A DNA stretch of 64,000 nt, from the NCBI RefSeq assembly GCF_003992015.1, contig NZ_RQVK01000002.1, forward strand, positions 1 to 64,000, read 5' to 3'. Within the stretch, counting starts at the first letter, position 1; each line of letters begins with the position of its first letter. The position numbers were made by a program, and so were the translations under genes. The stretch comes from Veillonella sp. VA137. Its GTDB lineage: Bacteria; Bacillota; Negativicutes; Veillonellales; Veillonellaceae. Shown here in pieces: positions 5,530 through 33,378 of this stretch. The notes under the pieces are model-generated. The model searched no databases. It saw nothing but the letters and a program-made list of their open reading frames with translations, and was not told where the DNA came from.

Positions 5530-6081
5530 ATGGGCGAAACAGAAAAGAAATTAAAATACGCAAAGCTTACCATAGAAAATATTAAAAGTTTAGATGAAAA
5601 CTCTTATTATGATGTTGTTGATCCAATGTGGGAAACAATTAATATTTATGATGGATATGATGAGTATATTCAATCAGCGCAGACTTTCACTTTAGAGCAA
5701 AGATATTTATTAGCCATTACTTGGTATTTTGTAGAAGTAAATAATGGAGGTCATCATCAGTTTTTATATAATCCTACAGGGATAGTTTGGGAAGATGCAA
5801 TAAAAGGTTTCAAACATTTTGGAATGAACGAATATGCAGGTAATTTTCAAAAAGTTGTAGACTATTGTGGTGGGACAATATCGTTTGGTAGAGAAGAAAG
5901 ATATCATATGCTAGAAATGTTGGAAGAAAAATACGGAGAAGAATTTTTTAAGATATTAGATGAAGCCGATGATTTCATTTATGATTATGAAGGTGAAGAA
6001 AACGAACTAAACTACATCAAATCTCACCCTGAAAAGTTTGTATTTGAAGGAGAATACGAGAGCTTTTACAATCGGCGGTAA
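5530..6081 (+). CDS. DMP19-family (DUF4375) protein, immunity-like, copy 2
   Basis: A 183-residue paralogue of the gene at 156-701, starting MGETEKKLKYAK with a GAGGAG site 11 bases upstream. It has NGGHHQFLYN followed by GIVWED. From about residue 127 to the end it is nearly identical to copy 1, including 3' flanking bases, while the first two thirds differ at many positions. This mosaic pattern fits diversification of immunity specificity with recombination at the 3' end. Confidence 0.8.
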   Translation: MGETEKKLKYAKLTIENIKSLDENSYYDVVDPMWETINIYDGYDEYIQSAQTFTLEQRYLLAITWYFVEVNNGGHHQFLYNPTGIVWEDAIKGFKHFGMNEYAGNFQKVVDYCGGTISFGREERYHMLEMLEEKYGEEFFKILDEADDFIYDYEGEENELNYIKSHPEKFVFEGEYESFYNRR

Positions 6082-6197
6082 AAAAGAAAAAGTAATCTTC
6101 TAAAAAGTTGAGAGAATGGCGCTTGAATGAAGAATCTTAGCGTGTGAAAAAGAGAAATAATGAGAGAAATGCTTGATGGAGGAAGTGGATAAACGAT

Positions 6198-6443
6198 ATG
6201 GATGAAGTATTTGAATGGTTAACAGTACATTACCAGTATGTCTTGATAGCAGGTGGATTACTATTTTTAATCGGTGCTATACGAGATTGGAAATGGGTGT
6301 ATCAAGCTACAGTCGGAGATAAGGCAAGGCACGCATTTATTTTTGAAGTGTGGGGTGAGAAAGGATATAGAGTCTTTATAGGAATATGTGGATTGTTGCT
6401 TGTCATTTGTGGGGTTATATTTTTAATGTTGGATAAACGATAA
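6198..6443 (+). CDS. Immunity protein 17 family, small membrane protein
   Basis: An 81-residue protein with two hydrophobic helices (about residues 15-25 and 58-76) separated by RDWKWVYQATVGDKAR and EKGYRVFIGICG. This layout, small with two membrane passes and a basic loop, matches the Imm17 family found beside polymorphic toxins. It is followed after 19 bases by the DUF695-RraB gene, probably in one transcript. Its membrane location suggests protection against a membrane-acting or translocating toxin; inferred. Confidence 0.7.
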   Translation: MDEVFEWLTVHYQYVLIAGGLLFLIGAIRDWKWVYQATVGDKARHAFIFEVWGEKGYRVFIGICGLLLVICGVIFLMLDKR

Positions 6444-20938: not shown

Positions 20939-21002
20939 GTATGCAAATCTTTCGATATATGAGATAATATATAATAGAATAACACAAGTAAGGAGGTTGT
21001 AT

Positions 21003-21905
21003 ATGGAAGCAAAAGAATGGCAAACCTTCGTCACAGTGGTGGAAGAAGGCAATATTACGAAAGCAGCAGAAAAATTATTTCTTTCACAGCCTGCACTAAG
21101 CTACCGATTAAAACAAGTAGAAGATATCTTAGGGCGCCCCTTATTAATTCGTGCTAATGATGGCATTGCGTTAACTGCAGAAGGTGAGCTGTATTACGAT
21201 TATTGTCGACGTATGATTCGGTCACGGGAGGAATTGCGACAAAATATTGGAAAGGTGACAGGAAAAATACAAGGCACCTTAAAAATTGCTGCATCCATTA
21301 ATTTTGCGGACTACGAGTTGCCTCATTTACTCAATAATTTTACAAAACAGTATCCCAAGATTCGCATCGAAGTGAAGACAGGTTATAGTTCTCACGTGAA
21401 TAAAATGTTTAATTCTGGAGAAGTGATGATTGCTTTTGCCAGAGGAGAGTATAATCATGTGCCCAATGGTGTGCGTCTTTTTGATGAACCCTATTGTTTA
21501 GTGTATAAACATCCTGTGGATTACAAGGAATTACGGGATATTCCGATGATTAACTATCGCACGGATGGATCCATTGCGACAGTGGTAGAAAATTGGAAGA
21601 AAGAACATAGCGTGGGAGATGTGAGACCAGCCATGGAACTGGACTCTATGGTGACTTGTCGTCACTTCGTACGAGAAGGACTAGGTTGGGCTATTTTGCC
21701 GTATTTAGGATTAGGTAGTTGCCGTGAACATGGTATTTATGTAGAACCTTTACGGATGAAAGATGATCGTCCATTGGTACGTTCTACCTATTTGTTCCAT
21801 GATGAAGTAAGCACAAAGCTAATTGCAGTGAAAACTTTCATTGATTATGTAACAGAGTATTACGAAAATCACCAAATCGTTACATTACCGGGATATACAA
21901 GCTAA
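21003..21905 (+). CDS. LysR-family regulator of the adjacent citrate genes (inferred)
   Basis: A 300-residue LysR-type protein: the winged helix-turn-helix is EGNITKAAEKLFLSQPALSYRLKQVE, followed by a periplasmic-binding-like effector domain. The ATG at 21003 is chosen over TTG 20997 because AAGGAGG (20990-20996) is then correctly spaced. It lies upstream of, and on the same strand as, the CitT-like carrier and citDEF, separated by a terminator and a 450-base regulatory region, so it is the likely regulator of that operon. Confidence 0.88.
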   Translation: MEAKEWQTFVTVVEEGNITKAAEKLFLSQPALSYRLKQVEDILGRPLLIRANDGIALTAEGELYYDYCRRMIRSREELRQNIGKVTGKIQGTLKIAASINFADYELPHLLNNFTKQYPKIRIEVKTGYSSHVNKMFNSGEVMIAFARGEYNHVPNGVRLFDEPYCLVYKHPVDYKELRDIPMINYRTDGSIATVVENWKKEHSVGDVRPAMELDSMVTCRHFVREGLGWAILPYLGLGSCREHGIYVEPLRMKDDRPLVRSTYLFHDEVSTKLIAVKTFIDYVTEYYENHQIVTLPGYTS

Positions 21906-22381: not shown

Positions 22382-23803
22382 ATGAACAAAAAAGTAATCA
22401 ATGCTTTGATTATGTTGTTAATCCCAATCGTGATCTGGTATAGCCCAGCTCCAGAAGGATTAGCAGATGGTGCTTGGAAACTATTTGGTTTCTATTTAGC
22501 AGCTATCGTAGGCTTAATTTTGAAGCCATTTCCAGCTCCTGTTGTAGTATTATCCGCTATCGCAGGTTCTGCATTATTTTTAGGTAACACAAAAGCAGTT
22601 CTTTCTGGTTATGCAACAACAACAGCATGGTTGGTATTCTCTGCATTTGCTTTATCTGTAGCATTTGTAAAGACTGGCTTAGGTCGTCGTATTGCCTACC
22701 ATCTAATCAATGCATTTGGTGGTACAGTACTTCGTTTAGGCTATGTAACAGCATTGCTTGACTTTGTTGTATCCCCTGCAACACCATCTAATACAGCTCG
22801 TTGTGGTGGTATCGTATTCCCAATTATGAATGCAGTGGCAAAATCCTTAGGTTCTGAACCAGGTGAAACAGCTAATAAAGCTGGTCGTTTCTTAATGGTT
22901 AATACGTACATGGTAACAAAAGTTACGTCCTTAATGTTCTTAACAGCCATGGCACCTAATGCATTGGCGGGTGACTTCATGGCTAAAATGTTAGGTGTAC
23001 ATTTAGATTGGGGCTTATGGGCTCTAGCGATGATTGTACCAGGTATTGCTATGTTATTAGTAGTTCCATACATCACGTACTTGTTTAACAAACCAACTAT
23101 GACAACAGTAGACAATAAAAAAATTGCTGCTGAAGGGTTAGCGGAATTAGGACCTATGTCCCGATCTGAAAAAACATTGGTTGGTATCTTTATCTTCGCT
23201 TTATTAGGGTGGGCATTGCCTTCCATTTTGGCAGCATTCGGCATTAAATTCAAAATTGATGCTACAGCTGTGGCAATTGTATCCATGGTAGCTTCCTTCT
23301 GCTTGGGTGCTATTAAATGGGATGATATGGTTGCTAATAAAGGTGGCTGGAACACATTGATGTGGTTCGGTGGTATCATCGGTTTATCTGATGCATTAGC
23401 TAAAGCTAAATTCTTCGAATGGTTAGCAGATGTAATGCAAACACATCTTCATTTTGGAGACAATGGATTTGTAGCACTTGTTATTATCGGAATTATTTCC
23501 GTAGCAATTCGTTACTTATTCGCATCTGGTTCTGCTTATGTAGTAGCAATGCTTCCAGTATTCTTGGCAGTAGGCCCTGCAGCTGGTGTAAACCCTATGG
23601 CATTAGCATTAGTATTGTGCGCATCTAATTCCTATGGTGGTGCATTAACACATTACGGCGGCGCGGCAGCACCTATCGTATTTGGCGCAGGCTATAACGA
23701 TGTAAAAGATTGGTGGATCACTGGCGGTGTAGTAGCAGTCATTTGCTTAGTGCATACATTCGTAATTGGTTATCCATGGTGGGGTATGTTAGGTATCCTA
23801 TAA
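22382..23803 (+). CDS. DASS-family citrate/dicarboxylate carrier (CitT-like)
   Basis: A 473-residue membrane protein with 12 or more hydrophobic segments. DASS signatures are present: VVSPATPSNTARCGGIVFPI in the first half and ASGSAYVVAMLPV with SNSYGGALTHYGGAAAPIVFGAGY in the second. CitT-type members exchange citrate for succinate, TtdT members tartrate for succinate. The gene leads into citDEF after 90 bases, so citrate is the most likely substrate. No signal peptide is needed; the first helix starts at residue 4. Confidence 0.9.
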   Translation: MNKKVINALIMLLIPIVIWYSPAPEGLADGAWKLFGFYLAAIVGLILKPFPAPVVVLSAIAGSALFLGNTKAVLSGYATTTAWLVFSAFALSVAFVKTGLGRRIAYHLINAFGGTVLRLGYVTALLDFVVSPATPSNTARCGGIVFPIMNAVAKSLGSEPGETANKAGRFLMVNTYMVTKVTSLMFLTAMAPNALAGDFMAKMLGVHLDWGLWALAMIVPGIAMLLVVPYITYLFNKPTMTTVDNKKIAAEGLAELGPMSRSEKTLVGIFIFALLGWALPSILAAFGIKFKIDATAVAIVSMVASFCLGAIKWDDMVANKGGWNTLMWFGGIIGLSDALAKAKFFEWLADVMQTHLHFGDNGFVALVIIGIISVAIRYLFASGSAYVVAMLPVFLAVGPAAGVNPMALALVLCASNSYGGALTHYGGAAAPIVFGAGYNDVKDWWITGGVVAVICLVHTFVIGYPWWGMLGIL

Positions 23804-23894: not shown

Positions 23895-24164
23895 ATGAAA
23901 CATCTAGTGAAAGCAGCTATGGCTGGCTTTGATGAAAAAAATGATGTATTGGTGACAGTGGAACCAATTGCATCTGGTATCGAAGTAGAATTAAAATCAA
24001 AAGTTGAGCGTGCCTACGGTAAGCATATTCGTGCTTTCATTGAAGCCACTGTAAAAGAAGCAGGCTTCGATGGCGTGAAAGTAACAGCTATCGATAAAGC
24101 AGCTTGGGATTATACGATTAAAGCCCGTGTATTGGGTGCATTAGAAAGAGGGAGCGAAGCATAA
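23895..24164 (+). CDS. citD: Citrate lyase gamma subunit (CitD), atypical
   Basis: An 89-residue protein matching CitD, the acyl carrier protein of citrate lyase, over its whole length (VEPI, KSKVERAYGKHIRAFIE, DKAAWDYTIKARVLGALER). In classical CitD a serine in a G-T-L-E-S-x-D motif near residue 14 carries the phosphoribosyl-dephospho-CoA group. Here the aligned stretch reads AGFDEKNDVLV, with lysine in place of that serine, and no other serine nearby. The stop overlaps the citE start (TAATG). Identity firm; function as a carrier is doubtful. Confidence 0.85.
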   Translation: MKHLVKAAMAGFDEKNDVLVTVEPIASGIEVELKSKVERAYGKHIRAFIEATVKEAGFDGVKVTAIDKAAWDYTIKARVLGALERGSEA

Positions 24165-25096
24165 TGAGCCAATTAACTGAATTAGCAAAAAAACGTTTAT
24201 CTCGTTCCATGATGTTCGTGCCTGGTAACACGCCTAAAATGATCAACAGCGCTGATATCCACGGTGCAGACTCCATCATGTTTGACATTGAAGACTCCGT
24301 AGCAGTCACTGAAAAAGATACAGCTCGTTTACTAACAGCAGAAGCTTTGAAAACTTTAAAATTCAAAGGTGAAACAGTGGTTCGTATCAACCATCCAACA
24401 CAAACTCCATATGGTTATGCTGACCTTGATGTCATCGTACCAGCAAAACCTGACTTGATTCGTCTTCCAAAAACAGAAGATGTATCTGAAGTAGAAATTG
24501 TTGCTAAGAAAATTGAAGAAGTAGAAAAAGCGAACGGTTGGGAAGAAGGTACTATCAACATTATCGTAGCTATCGAATCCGTAAAAGGTCTATACAATGT
24601 ACGTGAAATCGCACAAGGTCCTCGTGTAGTAGCGATTGCTCTTGGTGCAGAAGATTACCGTGCTGACCTTCGTACAGGTAAACATAAACCAGCTCATGAA
24701 TTGTTATTTGCTCGTCAAACCATCCTTCATGCAGCTCGTGAAGCAGGTATCCGTGTACTTGACACAGTATTCTCCGATGTGAAAGACCCACAAGGCTTCC
24801 GTGAAGAAGTAGAATTCATTAAAGCCCTTGGTTACGATGGAAAATCTTGCATTCACCCAAGCCAAATCAAAATTATCCATGAAGTGTTTACGCCAGATGA
24901 AAAAGAAATTGCGCATTCTGTAAAAGTATTGAACTCCTATGCAGAAGCACTTCGCAACAATAAAGGCGTTATCGCTGTAGATGGTAAAATGATTGACGGT
25001 CCTATCGTAGTACGTGCACAACGCGTGGTAGATAAAGCCCGTGCAGCAGGTATCAAGGTAGAACTTGAGGAAGGAGCAGAAATCGATGTTAAATAA
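24164..25096 (+). CDS. citE: Citrate lyase beta subunit (CitE)
   Basis: A 310-residue (beta/alpha)8 enzyme that cleaves citryl-thioester to oxaloacetate and an acetyl-thioester. Motifs: SMMFVPGNTPKM, MFDIEDSVAVTEKD (metal-binding acid residues), RLPKTEDV, IALGAEDYRADLRT and GYDGKSCIHPSQI, all as in CitE. Length is normal. It overlaps citD by one base and citF by 11 bases, consistent with a stoichiometric complex. Confidence 0.95.
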   Translation: MSQLTELAKKRLSRSMMFVPGNTPKMINSADIHGADSIMFDIEDSVAVTEKDTARLLTAEALKTLKFKGETVVRINHPTQTPYGYADLDVIVPAKPDLIRLPKTEDVSEVEIVAKKIEEVEKANGWEEGTINIIVAIESVKGLYNVREIAQGPRVVAIALGAEDYRADLRTGKHKPAHELLFARQTILHAAREAGIRVLDTVFSDVKDPQGFREEVEFIKALGYDGKSCIHPSQIKIIHEVFTPDEKEIAHSVKVLNSYAEALRNNKGVIAVDGKMIDGPIVVRAQRVVDKARAAGIKVELEEGAEIDVK

Positions 25097-26636
25097 AATT
25101 GGTCGCGACATTCCTATGGAATTAGAATGCCTTCAAGGTCGTCGTGTATATGAAGGTCAATTCGCTATGACAGAAACTGGTACACGTGCAGGTAAACCAG
25201 TGAAACTTCACACTCCAGGTGAAAATAAATTACTAGGATCCATCGATGAAGCTATTGAAAAAGTAGGCTTGAAAGATGGGATGTCCATTTCCTTCCACCA
25301 TCATTTACGTAATGGTGACTATGTAATGAAACTTGTAATGGACCGTGTACAAGCCAAAGGAATCAAAGATATTACAATCCTTAACTCTTCCTTGGCTCCT
25401 TGTCATGAGTTCTTAATCGATATGATTAAAGATGGCACAGTAACAGCCATCGAAACATCTGGTCTTCGTGATGCATTGGGTAAATTCTTAAGCTTGAACC
25501 CAGGCGTATTAAAACGCCCAGTAGTGATTCGTTCCCATGGTGGACGTGCTCGTGCCGTTTGCACTGGGGAAGCTCATATTGACGTAGCTTTCATGGGCGT
25601 ACCTGCTTGTGATCGCCGTGGTAATGCCACAGGCCGTAAAGGTAAATCTGCTTGCGGTGCTTTAGGCTATGCTATGGTTGACTCTCATTATGCAGATCAA
25701 ACTGTATTGTTAACAGATAATTTAATTGACAATGTATACCCAATCTCCATCCCTCAAACAGATGTAGATTACATCGTAGAAGTAGAGGCTATTGGTGATC
25801 CAGAAGGTATCGCATCTGGTGCTGTGGGAATTACGAAAAACCCTGTACAAATTAAAATTGCGGAAATGGCAGCAGAATTCCTTGATGAAGCTGGTATTAT
25901 CCAAGAAGGTTTCTCTTTCCAATTGGGCGCTGGTGGAGCTCCATTGGCAGTAGCTAAATTTATCGGCGAAAAATTAGAGAAAAAAGGCGTTGTTGGTGGA
26001 TTCGGTGTTGGCGGTGCTACAGGCGTACTAGTAAGCATGCTTGAAAAAGGTCACATCAAAGCGATTTATGATACACAAACATTTGATACAACAGCAGCGG
26101 CATCTTTGGATACAAATCCAAATCATATCGAAATGAGCGCATCCATGTACGCAGACCCTACAACAGACTGCATGACAAACTACTTAGATGTAGTATTCTT
26201 GGGCGCTACAGAAATCGATACAGATTTCAACGTAAACTGTATGACTGACTCCAACGGTATCTTGATGGGTGCTTCTGGCGGTCACTCCGATACAGCGGCA
26301 GGTGCAAAAGTAACTGTTATCACTTGCCCATTAATTCGTGGTCGCTTACCAATGATTCGTGAACGTGTGGAAACAGTTATCACTCCAGGTGAAAGTATCG
26401 ACGTGTTGGTAACAGAACGTGGTATTGCAATCAATCCAAATCGCCAAGATTTGATCGAACGATTCAAAGATTCTAACTTACCAATTTATACAATTGAAGA
26501 GTTACAACAAATGGCGTACGACATGGTTGGTAAACCAGAAGGTATTGAAGTATCTCAAGACCCTAAAGATGTAGTAGCCATCATCGAATATCGTGATGGT
26601 TCTATCATTGACGTAGTACGTAAACCATTGCTATAA
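25086..26636 (+). CDS. citF: Citrate lyase alpha subunit (CitF)
   Basis: A 516-residue transferase that exchanges acetyl for citrate on the thioester carrier. It has SFHHHLRNGDYV, PVVIRSHGGRARAVC and GASGGHSDTAAGAK as in CitF. The start at 25086 is preferred because GAGGAAGGAG lies at 25068-25077; an upstream in-frame start would sit inside citE. The genes for the activating ligase (citC) and the prosthetic-group enzymes (citX, citG) do not follow; the operon ends in a terminator. Confidence 0.95.
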   Translation: MLNKIGRDIPMELECLQGRRVYEGQFAMTETGTRAGKPVKLHTPGENKLLGSIDEAIEKVGLKDGMSISFHHHLRNGDYVMKLVMDRVQAKGIKDITILNSSLAPCHEFLIDMIKDGTVTAIETSGLRDALGKFLSLNPGVLKRPVVIRSHGGRARAVCTGEAHIDVAFMGVPACDRRGNATGRKGKSACGALGYAMVDSHYADQTVLLTDNLIDNVYPISIPQTDVDYIVEVEAIGDPEGIASGAVGITKNPVQIKIAEMAAEFLDEAGIIQEGFSFQLGAGGAPLAVAKFIGEKLEKKGVVGGFGVGGATGVLVSMLEKGHIKAIYDTQTFDTTAAASLDTNPNHIEMSASMYADPTTDCMTNYLDVVFLGATEIDTDFNVNCMTDSNGILMGASGGHSDTAAGAKVTVITCPLIRGRLPMIRERVETVITPGESIDVLVTERGIAINPNRQDLIERFKDSNLPIYTIEELQQMAYDMVGKPEGIEVSQDPKDVVAIIEYRDGSIIDVVRKPLL

Positions 26637-26656: not shown

Positions 26657-26690
26657 AAAAAGACTAGGCTTTCGAGCTTAGTCTTTTTTA
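26657..26690 (+). terminator. Terminator after citDEF
   Basis: AAAAAGACTA (26657-26666) pairs with TAGTCTTTTT (26679-26688), with an inner GGCT/AGCT extension. Confidence 0.85.
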
Positions 26691-26800
26691 GTATTGCCTA
26701 AATATGATATAGTGAAAGTATAGGACATATCAGGTTTTGGGATGTGGTCATTATGTAATAGGGGTATTGCTATGAAAAAAGAAAGAAGAAAGAAGGAAGA

Positions 26801-26877: not shown

Positions 26878-27471
26878 ATGCGAAAAGTGTATGTATGGTT
26901 TTTAATAATTATGTCTTTAATGGGTACATTTTATCTATATATCAATATTCATCGGTATATGACTACAAAAACTTTTTTTCGATATGAAATAACCTATCTT
27001 TATGAATTGAGAGATTACTTTAATAATCTAACTATAGAAAATGATATGTATACGTATATTGTAAAAGGTGATAATTTATATACTTATGGATTATCAGGAT
27101 ATACAAAAATAAAATTGGGATTAGATATACATATTATTAAAATCTTAAATGGTGAATATGAAAAAAATTATATTACTGATGTAGAAGGAAGAGGCTCATT
27201 TTATTCGAGTATTGAGGAATTAAGATATGGGTATTTAGATGATATTACTCTTTTAACAAATTTTGAAGATATAGATGATGAAGATATAAATACCTTTTAT
27301 TTGTTGTATAAAAGAAGACCAGATATTGAAGTCTTTTTATCTTCTATAGAAAAATCTCGTTTCTCCTATAAAGATGGAAAAAAAGTAGCACAAGGTCTTC
27401 GGGAATTAAATGATTCCTTAATTAAAGAATATATGAAGAGGAATGGAGAAATAAACGATATCTCTAAATAA
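26878..27471 (+). CDS. Membrane-anchored hypothetical protein, immunity-like
   Basis: A 197-residue protein with one N-terminal hydrophobic helix (about residues 5-23) and a Tyr- and Asp-rich remainder, so probably an inner-membrane protein with one large domain. It sits between a toxin-tail-like fragment and a toxin module, in AT-rich DNA unlike the citrate operon. Not recognised; immunity function inferred from position only. Confidence 0.55.
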   Translation: MRKVYVWFLIIMSLMGTFYLYINIHRYMTTKTFFRYEITYLYELRDYFNNLTIENDMYTYIVKGDNLYTYGLSGYTKIKLGLDIHIIKILNGEYEKNYITDVEGRGSFYSSIEELRYGYLDDITLLTNFEDIDDEDINTFYLLYKRRPDIEVFLSSIEKSRFSYKDGKKVAQGLRELNDSLIKEYMKRNGEINDISK

Positions 27472-27506
27472 TAGTGAAAATCTAGATATTATGTAGAAAT
27501 TCATGA

Positions 27507-28049
27507 GTATCTTCTAAACAATCTACTACTGAAACAGCAAGCTCTACTACAAACACAACAAACTTAGCTGATAGTCCAGATGTTTATCGGAATGGTGAGC
27601 AATATAAACCGGGAGTGAAAACAAGAGAATTAAAAGAGAATATTGTATATGAGAGCAAAGGGTATTATTACCAAACGGATGAATTGGGTCGTATAAAGGC
27701 TGCCCAAGGTGATTTGCGATTAGAAGATGGTGTACGAAATAACGGAGATCAATTAAAAGCAGGTTATGAAGACCGATTACCAAACGACCATGGTGGACAT
27801 CTGATAGCTAAAATCTTTGGAGGATCAGGAGAGTTAGATAATCTAGTTGCTATGGATAAGATTGTGAACACTGTAGAATATAGAGAATTAGAAAGGGTTT
27901 GGTATAAAAGATTAAATGAAGGTAAAAAAGTAGAAGTTACAATTGATGTTAAATACGAAGAAGTTAATAAGCGACCAACGGGATTTGATGTTATATATAA
28001 AGTAGATGACAATCCTGAGGTTATTCAGTTTCTTCCTAATGGAGGATGA
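27507..28049 (+). CDS. Delivery-less DNA/RNA non-specific endonuclease toxin module
   Basis: The frame is open from 27507 to 28049 (180 codons). It begins with a Ser/Thr-rich linker, then YYYQTDELGRI and the endonuclease core LPNDHGGHLIAKIFGG and NLVAMDKIVN, matching the Endonuclea_NS_2 type of polymorphic-toxin C-terminal domain; the His of the DHGGHL motif is the expected catalytic base. A GTG at 27615 is the first plausible start but lacks a clear Shine-Dalgarno. The secretion and delivery domains are absent, so this is an orphan toxin cassette or a 5'-truncated toxin gene. The YezG-like gene follows after 4 bases. Confidence 0.75.
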   Translation, partial: VSSKQSTTETASSTTNTTNLADSPDVYRNGEQYKPGVKTRELKENIVYESKGYYYQTDELGRIKAAQGDLRLEDGVRNNGDQLKAGYEDRLPNDHGGHLIAKIFGGSGELDNLVAMDKIVNTVEYRELERVWYKRLNEGKKVEVTIDVKYEEVNKRPTGFDVIYKVDDNPEVIQFLPNGG

Positions 28050-28053
28050 ATAT

Positions 28054-29604
28054 ATGTTTGTAAAAGAAATGAAAGATGAAGTAGCAATTAAGTTGACTGA
28101 CTTACTAAAAGCTAGATTAAATATTTTGTTACAAGATAATTGGGAAAGTTTAGTTTTTTTTGGACAGTGCTGGAGGTCAAGTTTAGCACCAAGATACATA
28201 ATTACTTTTGAGGATGGAACATATATCATGGAGGGAGAGCTATTTTGTTTTTCCTCTGAACGTATTGGAGATAGGTCATTTTTTAATATATTAGTGGATA
28301 ATTTTCTCAAAGTATATAAGTTTAAGAATAAGGATAATGTGCACACTCTTAATATACTGAATATTGAGATTGGAAAAAATGGAGATTCTAGATATACATA
28401 TAGCGAAGATTTGTATGGTAACTATGAATATCCACATACACCGTATATTTTATGGTCATATGTAGAGGTAGGAAATACAAAGGGATTTATAAGGGAGGAG
28501 GAAATAGAAGCAGAAAAGTATATTGATAAGTACAGTTTACAACCTAAGAGGACATTACAACGTAGAATAAAGACTCTTAAAATATCTGCTTTACTAGAGA
28601 ACTTACTTTATAAACAAATTATGTATATTAATGGGTATTTGCCTACTAAAACTAGAAAGATATACTTTCATTTAGATGTGCTAGATAAAAAATGGAAACT
28701 TAGTCTTTACATTAATACTGCAGATAATAAATGGATAAGAATTAGAAACATACAATCTACTTATAATAGATGTATATATCAAGAGTTAATTGTCACATTA
28801 AAAGGTTGTATTGATGAAATTGATGAATTACATCGCATTTGCAGTAAAAAATATACAGCTATAGACTATGTCTACGATATTTCCACAGGCGAACTCTCGT
28901 ATGTATATGACAATATAACAGAAGATAATTTTACTGACGAATTGGCCTTAGTAAATGCTTGGGAAGAACGGTATTTTTCCAAAGATGGGGAACCACTGCT
29001 TACGCATGCAGTAGCACCTCATGAGGGATGTATCACAGGGACTATGCACATAGATATGTCTCAGTTTATTGAAGAGGAGGAAGAAGAAATGGTTAGTGTA
29101 GATCCAGCTATAGAATTTACAGGGGAAGATATTCACGAGTTGATTCCACAATATCTTCAAAATAGTTACGATATTTTGTATTCTATCTTGCCAGGTACAT
29201 ATCATCGGGTATACCTATATGTAGAGAATGATGGAACAGTATGCCGTCAACTAGGGTATATCATTGTCGACGGTGAATACCTTACTTTTGAGGAGATGAT
29301 AGACCATAAGGTGGTTTCTAAGGCTACTTATGATGCTACGATGGAACAACTAGCGCTGTGGTCGAATTACATGCGAAATGCATTTATTGCATGTCATCTT
29401 GAACCGTGGACGGTGTTCTCCTATATGTTAGATGAAGAACTGCATATTTCCAATAACTTTGGTTATGATGTATTAGCGGATCAATCTTATGACAATGAAC
29501 TCTTTGACCTATGGTCTTATGAAAAATTAGGAATTAAGAGTCCTAACTTACCTGAGGATAAGATAACAACTATTGTACCAGAGAATGAATATACAAAATT
29601 TTAA
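28054..29604 (+). CDS. Large YezG-like (DUF600) immunity protein
   Basis: A 516-residue protein. The C-terminal part (from about residue 370: SYDILYSILPGTYHRVYLYVE, then QLALWSNYMRNAF and EPWTVFSYMLDEE) resembles the YezG immunity family, whose B. subtilis member neutralises an LXG toxin with this nuclease type. The N-terminal half has a comparable layout (NWESLVFFGQCW, YIITFEDGTYI) and may be a diverged second domain. GGAGG at 28041-28045 supports ATG 28054; the toxin stop lies between the two, so toxin and antidote are coupled. An acidic linker (EEEEEE) lies near residue 335. Confidence 0.7.
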   Translation: MFVKEMKDEVAIKLTDLLKARLNILLQDNWESLVFFGQCWRSSLAPRYIITFEDGTYIMEGELFCFSSERIGDRSFFNILVDNFLKVYKFKNKDNVHTLNILNIEIGKNGDSRYTYSEDLYGNYEYPHTPYILWSYVEVGNTKGFIREEEIEAEKYIDKYSLQPKRTLQRRIKTLKISALLENLLYKQIMYINGYLPTKTRKIYFHLDVLDKKWKLSLYINTADNKWIRIRNIQSTYNRCIYQELIVTLKGCIDEIDELHRICSKKYTAIDYVYDISTGELSYVYDNITEDNFTDELALVNAWEERYFSKDGEPLLTHAVAPHEGCITGTMHIDMSQFIEEEEEEMVSVDPAIEFTGEDIHELIPQYLQNSYDILYSILPGTYHRVYLYVENDGTVCRQLGYIIVDGEYLTFEEMIDHKVVSKATYDATMEQLALWSNYMRNAFIACHLEPWTVFSYMLDEELHISNNFGYDVLADQSYDNELFDLWSYEKLGIKSPNLPEDKITTIVPENEYTKF

Positions 29605-29707
29605 TAAGAAGGAAAATGGGATTGATAGTGAATAAAGTAAGTCCATCTTTTAAGTATAGTATACAGATTAATACAGTGGTGTATCGATAAAAAAGGAAGG
29701 TATAGAT

Positions 29708-30208
29708 ATGATTGGATATATTAAGAAATATGGTGTAGAAATTATTTTAATACTTGCCTATATAGGCATTATGTCATTAGTGACAATAGTAATGTATACA
29801 CCAGATAACCCTCCATCCTTAAATGTTAAAAAAAATACGATAACTGGAAAATATGTAGCTGTCATGGAATCTGGAAATTATTCAAGAGTGATAGACCCTT
29901 ATGTGAAGGCACAGTATTTTACTAGAAGTTTTCAATATACGTACGGATCAATTGGATTTATGAGTCAATTCGTATTTAATGGCGATACTACCGTGGTATT
30001 AAATAAAAGTATGACAGATGAGGAAAAAGAAAAGCTAATCCAATTCCTAAAGGATATACGGAAGGATAAAGAATTAGGTCATCCTAGAATTTCTATTATT
30101 GAAGAAAAAGATTTGGATGAACGTAAGTATGAAATTATGAAAAAATTAGAAATGGAGGCACGAGAGAAGCCATTAGAAAATCGTTCCGAGAGATATAATA
30201 GATTGTGA
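29708..30208 (+). CDS. Membrane-anchored hypothetical protein
   Basis: A 166-residue protein with a hydrophobic helix at about residues 10-31, then a basic and acidic soluble part ending in a charged tail. GGAAGG lies before the ATG. Similar in plan, one N-terminal helix plus a small domain, to the protein at 26878. It closes the toxin/immunity island. No family recognised. Confidence 0.55.
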   Translation: MIGYIKKYGVEIILILAYIGIMSLVTIVMYTPDNPPSLNVKKNTITGKYVAVMESGNYSRVIDPYVKAQYFTRSFQYTYGSIGFMSQFVFNGDTTVVLNKSMTDEEKEKLIQFLKDIRKDKELGHPRISIIEEKDLDERKYEIMKKLEMEAREKPLENRSERYNRL

Positions 30209-31443: not shown

Positions 31444-33378
31444 ATGGCAGGAAAAAGTTTAATCTATAAAATATTAGAAACTCATTTAGTAGAGGGAACA
31501 CTGGTTGCAGGTGAAGATATTGCAATCAGCATTGACCAAACTTTAACACAAGATGCCACAGGGACTATGGCATATTTAGAATTTGAATCTTTAGGGTTAG
31601 ACAGAGTAAAGACCCTATCTGTATCCTATGTAGATCATAATACATTACAAGATGGATTTGAAAATGCAGATGATCATAAATATTTACAAGATGTAGCAAG
31701 TAAATATGGTATTTATTATTCGAAAGCAGGTAATGGGATTTGCCATCAAGTACATTTAGAACGATTCGCTAGGCCAGGTCAAACCTTAGTAGGTGCAGAT
31801 AGTCATACTCCAACTGCTGGAGGTTTAGGGATGTTTGCTGTCGGTGTTGGGGGTATGGACGTGGCAGCATCTATGGCAGGAAAGCCATTCCATTTAACTT
31901 GTCCTAAAGTTACTAATATAAAATTAAATGGGCGTTTACAACCTTGGTGTGCAGCAAAAGATATCGTGCTAAAAGTATTAAGTATTTTAACCACTAAAGG
32001 AAATGTTGGAACAGCCATCGAGTATACAGGTGAAGGTGTGGCATCTTTAACAGTACCAGAGAGAGCAACCATCACGAATATGGGTGCAGAAATGGGAATT
32101 ACTACATCGATTTTCCCAAGTGATGCAAAAACAAAAGAGTTTTTACGCGCTCAAGGTCGTGAAGATGTATGGGTAGAATTACAGACAGATGAAGATGCAC
32201 AGTATGATGAAGTCATTGAAATTGATCTAAATACATTAGTGCCTATGATTGCATGTCCACACTCTCCAGATAATGTAAAAACAGTAGCAGAATTAAAAGA
32301 TGTTGTAGTAGACCAAGTACTAGTAGGAAGCTGCACCAATTCCAGTTATCGAGACTTAATGATGGTGGCATCTATGTTGAAAGGACGTAAAATTCATCCA
32401 GATGTGAGTTTTGGGGTAGCTCCTGGATCCAAGCAAGCATTAGCTATGATTACAAAAAATGGAGCCTTAGCAGATATCATTGCTTCTGGAGCACGTCTGT
32501 TTGAAAGTGCTTGTGGATTCTGTGTAGGTTGCGGACAAGCGCCACGAACAAAGTCTATTTCTTTGCGTACGAATAACCGTAACTATGAAGGTCGTAGTGG
32601 TACCAAAGATGCCTTAGTGCATTTAGTTTCAGTAGAAACAGCGGTAGCCTCTGCTTTAACGGGAACGATTACGGATCCTCGTGAAATAGGCTTAGAAGTA
32701 CCAACAATTGAGCTTCCTGAGGTGTATGAAATTGATGATTCCTTGATTGTTGCACCAAAATGCGATGTAAACCAATCTATTTTACGAGGTCCTAATATTG
32801 GAGAGCCTCCTAGCAATATTGCCTTACCAGAAACAATTTCTGCTAAAGTGACGATTAAAGTAGAAGATAAAATTACAACAGATCATATTATGCCAGCTGG
32901 ACCATATTTGAAATTTAGATCCAATGTACCTAAATATAGTCAATATGTATTCAGCCCTGTAAAACCAGATTTTGCAGAAGAATGTAAAGAAAATGTTGAG
33001 CATGGATACTATAATGTGATTGTAGCTCGTGAAAGTTATGGACAAGGATCTTCTCGTGAACATGCCGCACTTTGCCCAATGTATTTAGGAGTAAAAGCAG
33101 TGATTGCAAAATCTATTGAACGGATTCATATGGATAATCTTGTTAACTTTGGTATTTTGCCTTTATTATTTGAAAATGATGCAGATTATGAGAGTATTCA
33201 AGAAGGTGATGAATTATTCTATCATTGTGATGATGCTTCCTTTGCAGCTGGTGTATTTACCGTAGAAAATAAAACAAAATCTACGACCTACACATTAAGA
33301 ACACCATTAAATGAACGACAATTAGAAATTGTTCGAGCAGGAGGTAAATTGAACTTCTTGCGTAATGGTGGACAATAA
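31444..33378 (+). CDS. Aconitate hydratase (short aconitase form)
   Basis: A 644-residue [4Fe-4S] hydro-lyase interconverting citrate, cis-aconitate and isocitrate. Cluster cysteines are visible in VGSCTNSS and in ESACGFCVGCGQ; GADSHTPTAGGLGMFAVGVGG and the C-terminal swivel motif YGQGSSREHAA are present. The length fits the compact aconitases of Clostridia and Negativicutes, shorter than the 850-900 residues of AcnA/B. A PrpF-type isomerase follows, which points to aconitate catabolism. Confidence 0.92.
   Translation: MAGKSLIYKILETHLVEGTLVAGEDIAISIDQTLTQDATGTMAYLEFESLGLDRVKTLSVSYVDHNTLQDGFENADDHKYLQDVASKYGIYYSKAGNGICHQVHLERFARPGQTLVGADSHTPTAGGLGMFAVGVGGMDVAASMAGKPFHLTCPKVTNIKLNGRLQPWCAAKDIVLKVLSILTTKGNVGTAIEYTGEGVASLTVPERATITNMGAEMGITTSIFPSDAKTKEFLRAQGREDVWVELQTDEDAQYDEVIEIDLNTLVPMIACPHSPDNVKTVAELKDVVVDQVLVGSCTNSSYRDLMMVASMLKGRKIHPDVSFGVAPGSKQALAMITKNGALADIIASGARLFESACGFCVGCGQAPRTKSISLRTNNRNYEGRSGTKDALVHLVSVETAVASALTGTITDPREIGLEVPTIELPEVYEIDDSLIVAPKCDVNQSILRGPNIGEPPSNIALPETISAKVTIKVEDKITTDHIMPAGPYLKFRSNVPKYSQYVFSPVKPDFAEECKENVEHGYYNVIVARESYGQGSSREHAALCPMYLGVKAVIAKSIERIHMDNLVNFGILPLLFENDADYESIQEGDELFYHCDDASFAAGVFTVENKTKSTTYTLRTPLNERQLEIVRAGGKLNFLRNGGQ

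Follow-up and report, generated by a model that had tools for sequence, protein, structure and literature searches.

A conserved serine-less CitD in the citrate lyase operon of Veillonella and its relatives

Results

The window, by which we mean the whole 64,000-nucleotide stretch of contig NZ_RQVK01000002.1 from Veillonella sp. VA137 that was analysed, contains a citrate lyase operon on the forward strand, with the citD-citE-citF trio in the gene order of the classical enzyme. The first gene, citD (23895..24164), encodes the gamma subunit, a protein of 89 residues recognised by alignment and by PF06857 (76.8 bits); citE (24164..25096) encodes the lyase (beta) subunit (TIGR01588, 350.7 bits; PF03328); and citF (25086..26636) encodes the acyl/CoA transferase (alpha) subunit of 516 residues (TIGR01584), which matches PDB entry 2hj0 with E=1e-171. 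The start of CitF is most likely the ATG at 25086 and not the TTG at 25065 implied by the listing of open reading frames, because the ribosome site GAGGAAGGAG precedes 25086 and the alignment with 2hj0 starts there. Upstream of citD lies a gene for a DASS-family (CitT-like) sodium:carboxylate transporter (22382..23803, forward strand; TIGR00785, 431.7 bits; PF00939), an arrangement that is conserved in most Veillonella, preceded by a gene for a LysR-family regulator (20997..21905, forward strand) whose position is also conserved. An inverted repeat and T-run read from the sequence after citF (26658..26695, forward strand) form a likely terminator, and an aconitase (aconitate hydratase) gene found approximately 5 kb downstream (31444..33378, forward strand; NF005558, 912.6 bits, over the cut-off) is a possible supplier of citrate from aconitate or isocitrate. 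The region between citF and the LysR/aconitase pair (26878-30208) has the appearance of a toxin/immunity-like insertion, in which an open reading frame with a DNA/RNA non-specific endonuclease domain (27615-28049) is followed by one with a YezG-like immunity domain (28006-29604), together with small open reading frames; YezG-like frames are found again in one sister genome (L033), and the gene set at this place differs in L032.

The CitD sequence around the prosthetic-group site reads ...AAMAGFDEKNDVLV..., and Lys15 of its A-G-F-D-E-K-N-D motif (codon AAA, 23937..23939, forward strand) falls in the column of the serine in the classical GT[LV]ES[SNG]D, in a part of the family alignment that is ungapped. 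The first-pass annotation had given this motif and had claimed that lysine stands in place of the attachment serine; both readings are correct, and a wide alignment of CitD proteins brings no other serine to the attachment site that would overturn them. The only serines in the window CitD are S27, S35 and S87, of which S35 is a structural Ser/Thr position also kept in Ser-type CitD, and the alignment is free of gaps and reveals no alternative conserved serine, which excludes a shift of the attachment residue to somewhere near the site. Besides Lys15, the clade to which this protein belongs is marked by Phe12 and Trp71. The window CitD scores above the cut-off of the subfamily model NF009726 (74.7 bits against 65) and marginally below the equivalog threshold of TIGR01608 (63.3 bits against 63.5); a sequence search for relatives of CitD in the PDB found none.

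CitD is under purifying selection, with dN/dS of ~0.05-0.2 between Veillonella species, an approximate range as synonymous sites are near saturation. In the V. ratti/seminalis/intestinalis group (L039, L041, L043-L046) it is fused to the N-terminus of CitE through a short linker in a single open frame, giving proteins of 422-433 residues. A CitE-CitD fusion in L198 has arisen independently.

The partner subunits are well preserved. Window CitE keeps D44, R74, E138, D164 and D278, the Asp/Arg/Glu/Asp/Asp catalytic set, which 59 of 59 sequences share (an additional Asp is present in 58), and the metal and acid/base residues of CitE have assigned roles (PMC3832036). The window also retains 28 of the 29 CitE columns and 47 of the 52 CitF columns that are invariant in Ser-type enzymes. 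CitF exceeds the cut-off of the citrate lyase alpha model TIGR01584 (654.3 bits against 501.45), and CitE lies well under the equivalog cut-off of its own model (443.4). The clade carries marks in both subunits: Lys25, Asn28 and His231 in CitE, together with a one-residue insertion (Pro) directly after the active-site R74, and an Asn-Pro insertion in CitF.

Genome-wide statements of presence and absence rest on profile searches. The source genome (1.90 Mb in 35 contigs, 99.98% complete), whose closest relatives among named genomes are Veillonella spp. VA139, VA142, 3310, CHU740 and 3891, gave no match to CitX or CitG; its sole match to the CitC profile, at 27.8 bits, is a 168-residue open reading frame that is probably CoaD and not CitC. 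The lack of citC, citX and citG that had been remarked on for the operon thus extends to the whole genome. A second citDEFXG cluster elsewhere can be excluded, as the searches found neither an additional CitD or CitF nor any CitX or CitG.

This pattern holds across relatives. Our sample comprised 100 genomes, with CitD read in every member of the family, and in 29 of them every CitD is of the Ser-less kind (26 family members together with G049, G067 and G097). CitX and CitG are found in none of these 29, whereas each of the 25 genomes that carry one or more Ser-type CitDs has both, counting G056, where CitG is a contig-end fragment. CitC is also missing from the 29, with the exception of a full CitC in G067 (77% complete). 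The chance of such a contrast would be ~6e-16 if the genomes were independent, but 26 of the 29 belong to one family, and there are about four independent contrasts in the association. The best of these lies within one Megasphaera-like genus, in which G049 has a Ser-less operon only and no CitX, while G056 has two Ser-less operons and one Ser-type operon with CitX present. Among named genomes, CitX is absent from Pectinatus cerevisiiphilus, P. haikarae, P. brassicae and P. frisingensis, and from Megasphaera paucivorans, V. parvula SKV38, V. montpellierensis and V. magna; it is present in V. seminalis, whose genome matches that of G006 with its additional Ser-type operon. Elsewhere in the same order (families f2 and f3, G028-G050), a full-length CitC of ~230 bits occurs without CitD, CitX or CitG, as an orphan ligase.

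The loss of the attachment residue and of the accessory genes might be taken to mark a decaying, inactive remnant of citrate lyase. We regard this as extremely unlikely, given the purifying selection on CitD, the retention of the catalytic residues, the presence of CitD and CitF in every family genome, and the observation that citrate lyase gene expression in V. dispar changes between growth phases (PMC10100942).

Lys-type CitD is present in 28 of 28 family genomes including that of the window, two of which (G006 and G009) also carry a Ser-type protein. The same type of CitD, mostly with lysine, is found in Pectinatus, Megasphaera paucivorans, Sporomusaceae relatives and further Negativicutes, with threonine at the site in L057 and L061. 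These Ser-less types group as one clade on the CitE tree and on the CitF tree, with a support of 1.0 on the combined tree; a path from serine through threonine to lysine by single base changes (TCA-ACA-AAA) would fit the threonine seen in the basal branch. Inside this clade, one operon (L108, citD at 5980-6273) has a serine in the motif GFVESND together with the other marks of the clade. Its genome encodes five CitDs and also CitX, and the serine may have been regained by reversion or kept from an earlier state.

The combined tree has Ser-less CitD at three or more other positions, the number of events being uncertain on a midpoint root. These are a Bacillota group with GT[DE]EKND (L194-L196); L199 and L042, with GMEKKND and GSENKGD; and L198 and L200, with GTDRKGD and GTEERGD, L200 being from a Thermotogaceae MAG without CitX. 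Where the surroundings of the further Ser-less operons were fetched, no citC, citX or citG adjoins them, whereas the Ser-type operons retrieved with them mostly have these genes; within the single genome G154, the Ser-less operon L196 lacks all three and the Ser-type operon L197 has all three. The replacement of serine by lysine or arginine recurs in other lineages, serine seems to have been lost several times, and Ser-less CitD is a conserved and recurrent class and not an oddity of one genome. The Veillonella genome G015 carries L042 (6213-11362) as a second, highly divergent Ser-less citDEF, followed by a DASS transporter split across two frames.

The favouring of lysine or arginine at the site in several lineages raises the question of whether CitD still bears a covalent cofactor, at Lys15 or at another residue, attached by some other transferase, and the absence of CitX and CitG is compatible with the work of a different enzyme. 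Threonine at the site in L057 and L061, the lack of any conserved serine beyond the structural one, and the absence also of CitG, which makes the precursor, render this highly improbable.

We considered His231 of CitE (codon 24854..24856, forward strand), which lies in the sequence IHPSQ, as a marker of the Ser-less complexes. In the Negativicutes, a CitE beside a Ser-less CitD always has His at this position of the IHPxQ motif and a CitE of the Ser-type has Asn, or rarely Ser, with L108 as the exception. Outside the Negativicutes the association is broken both ways, with a Ser-type CitD beside a His-bearing CitE in Fusobacterium vincentii and others, and a Lys-type CitD beside an Asn-bearing CitE in L194-L196, and we therefore rejected the residue as a diagnostic. 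Solved structures of free-CoA lyases have His at this position, as does the window CitE, and IHPxQ is also found in six plasmid-borne CitE homologues, most of which are annotated as CoA ester lyase; His231 may give a slight hint of free-CoA use.

The genes adjoining Ser-less operons encode carriers of several families (DASS, CitMHS, CitS-like CCS, DcuC, TctA/TctC and DctM) and enzymes that include PEP carboxykinase, an oxaloacetate/pyruvate carboxylase-type (oxaloacetate decarboxylase-type) subunit, aconitase and an aconitase-like hydratase; a second Ser-less lineage adjoins TctA/TctC and aconitase. The occurrence of such carriers and of oxaloacetate-using enzymes next to the operons favours citrate over another substrate, and fits an uptake of citrate and its conversion to oxaloacetate. 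A free-CoA enzyme acting on citramalate or another hydroxy-tricarboxylate or dicarboxylate, to give acetyl-CoA and a 2-oxoacid, would accord with the clade-specific proline after R74 of CitE, with the score of CitE under its equivalog cut-off and with the fact that DASS and DcuC carriers are not specific for citrate. We nevertheless think it unlikely, as operons of the same type lie beside CitMHS (L054, L060 and L104), a CitS-like carrier (L051), PEP carboxykinase and the oxaloacetate decarboxylase-type subunit, the nearest Ser-type relatives are operons with CitMHS and DcuS/DpiB-like sensor kinases, and CitF exceeds the citrate lyase cut-off. Divergent citDEF operons with Lys- or Arg-type CitD in two unrelated genomes (L198 and L133/L200) adjoin ADP-ribosylglycohydrolase genes, and the substrate of L198 and L200 may be other than citrate.

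No Si-citrate synthase was found in the 28 family genomes, and no Re-citrate synthase is evident in the source genome, where the HMGL-family proteins resemble LeuA, a carboxylase/decarboxylase subunit and pyruvate carboxylase. CitDEF run backwards could in principle fill this gap, making citrate from oxaloacetate, acetyl-CoA and acetate. The source genome has a single protein of the Iso_dh family (isocitrate/isopropylmalate dehydrogenase), encoded close to leuA and probably LeuB, leaving no apparent isocitrate dehydrogenase in that family, to which the search was confined. Citrate made in this way would have no obvious use, and the uptake carriers adjoining citDEF point to catabolism, making a synthetic role distinctly improbable. 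The genome that encodes the aconitase at 31444-33378 lacks Si-citrate synthase and, by the Iso_dh search, isocitrate dehydrogenase; the simplest reading is that citrate, aconitate or isocitrate is imported and catabolised. We found no documentation of Veillonella growth on citrate in the accessible literature. Acidaminococcus fermentans, in which citDEF adjoins citrate transporters (PMC3035267), was set aside as a biochemical precedent, the genus not having been met in our scan of named genomes.

Discussion

Citrate lyase is the textbook case of an enzyme that depends on a covalently bound, CoA-derived group, which needs three helper genes. The enzyme described here has neither the serine that would bear this group, nor the synthesis of its precursor, nor the transferase, which makes a cycle of free acetyl-CoA and citryl-CoA the likeliest alternative. 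Isolated CitF and CitE are reportedly able to act on acetyl-CoA and citryl-CoA, in work by Dimroth and Eggerer in 1975 that is cited in PMC3832036. We propose that the window encodes what is probably a free-CoA citrate lyase, which would cycle acetyl-CoA and citryl-CoA and employ unmodified CitD as a structural subunit. CitF would move CoA from free acetyl-CoA to citrate, yielding citryl-CoA and acetate, and CitE would cleave citryl-CoA to oxaloacetate and acetyl-CoA, the latter re-entering the cycle; the net conversion of citrate to acetate and oxaloacetate would thus proceed without CitC, CitX or CitG. As acetyl-CoA would be catalytic in this scheme, CitC would not be needed, and CitD would serve as a scaffold joining CitE and CitF in the complex.

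The use of free CoA, the structural role of CitD and the identity of the substrate as citrate are each inferred from the patterns described above. The first-pass annotation had offered free CoA, another substrate or a purely structural CitD as options. The first and last of these gain support from the genome-wide loss of the cofactor genes along with the serine, from the conservation of CitD and its fusion to CitE, and from the kept residues of CitE and CitF; the transporters and neighbouring genes speak for citrate and against another substrate.

The preference for lysine or arginine at the old tether point suggests that the residue may help to hold free CoA, while threonine in two members argues against a strict need for it. 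A more specific and rather doubtful possibility is that cofactor loss is a recurrent evolutionary switch in citrate lyases and that the basic residue which takes the place of serine (lysine in at least three lineages, arginine in one) has a function. It would occupy the former tether point of the adenosine end of the cofactor and contact the 3'-phosphate of free CoA, so that a covalent carrier becomes a dock to which CoA binds non-covalently.

Citrate lyase appears to operate without the covalent group throughout a genus of bacteria that are common in the mouth and gut, and our search of the open-access literature, limited in its coverage, found no prior description of a Ser-less, cofactor-free citrate lyase. 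If this is true, citrate use in these bacteria is annotated with the wrong mechanism, the absence of CitC, CitX and CitG should not be taken to mean that function is lost, and the purpose of the tethered cofactor becomes a question, as related enzymes manage without it. The apparent repeated loss of the serine provides natural replicates, and G049 and G056 a natural contrast within one genus.

Comparison with known systems places the window enzyme close to the classical CitDEF with CitC, CitX and CitG, as in Klebsiella, E. coli and Enterococcus, with which it shares the gene trio and its order, the CitF and CitD families, the fold and catalytic residues of CitE and an adjoining carboxylate carrier; it differs in the loss of the attachment serine and of CitC, CitX and CitG, and in CitE and CitD scores under the curated equivalog cut-offs. 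The malonate decarboxylase carrier MdcC/MdcD has the same PF06857 carrier fold and a cofactor made by a CitG homologue, but it keeps the serine (GVxGSGD; L055, L058 and L059) and has other partners. The free-CoA CitE-like lyases, namely malyl-CoA lyase, the citramalyl-CoA lyase CLYBL and RipC, share the HpcH/HpaI TIM barrel and the metal and acid/base residues with the window CitE, and also IHPxQ, a motif that some Ser-type CitE have too, as well as the use of CoA thioesters that we propose here; these enzymes stand alone or in other clusters without CitD, whereas the window CitE is phylogenetically of the CitDEF type. The ATP-independent citryl-CoA route of isolated CitF and CitE consists of the same two half reactions, which there take place in vitro on dissociated subunits and which we propose to be physiological in Veillonella and its relatives.
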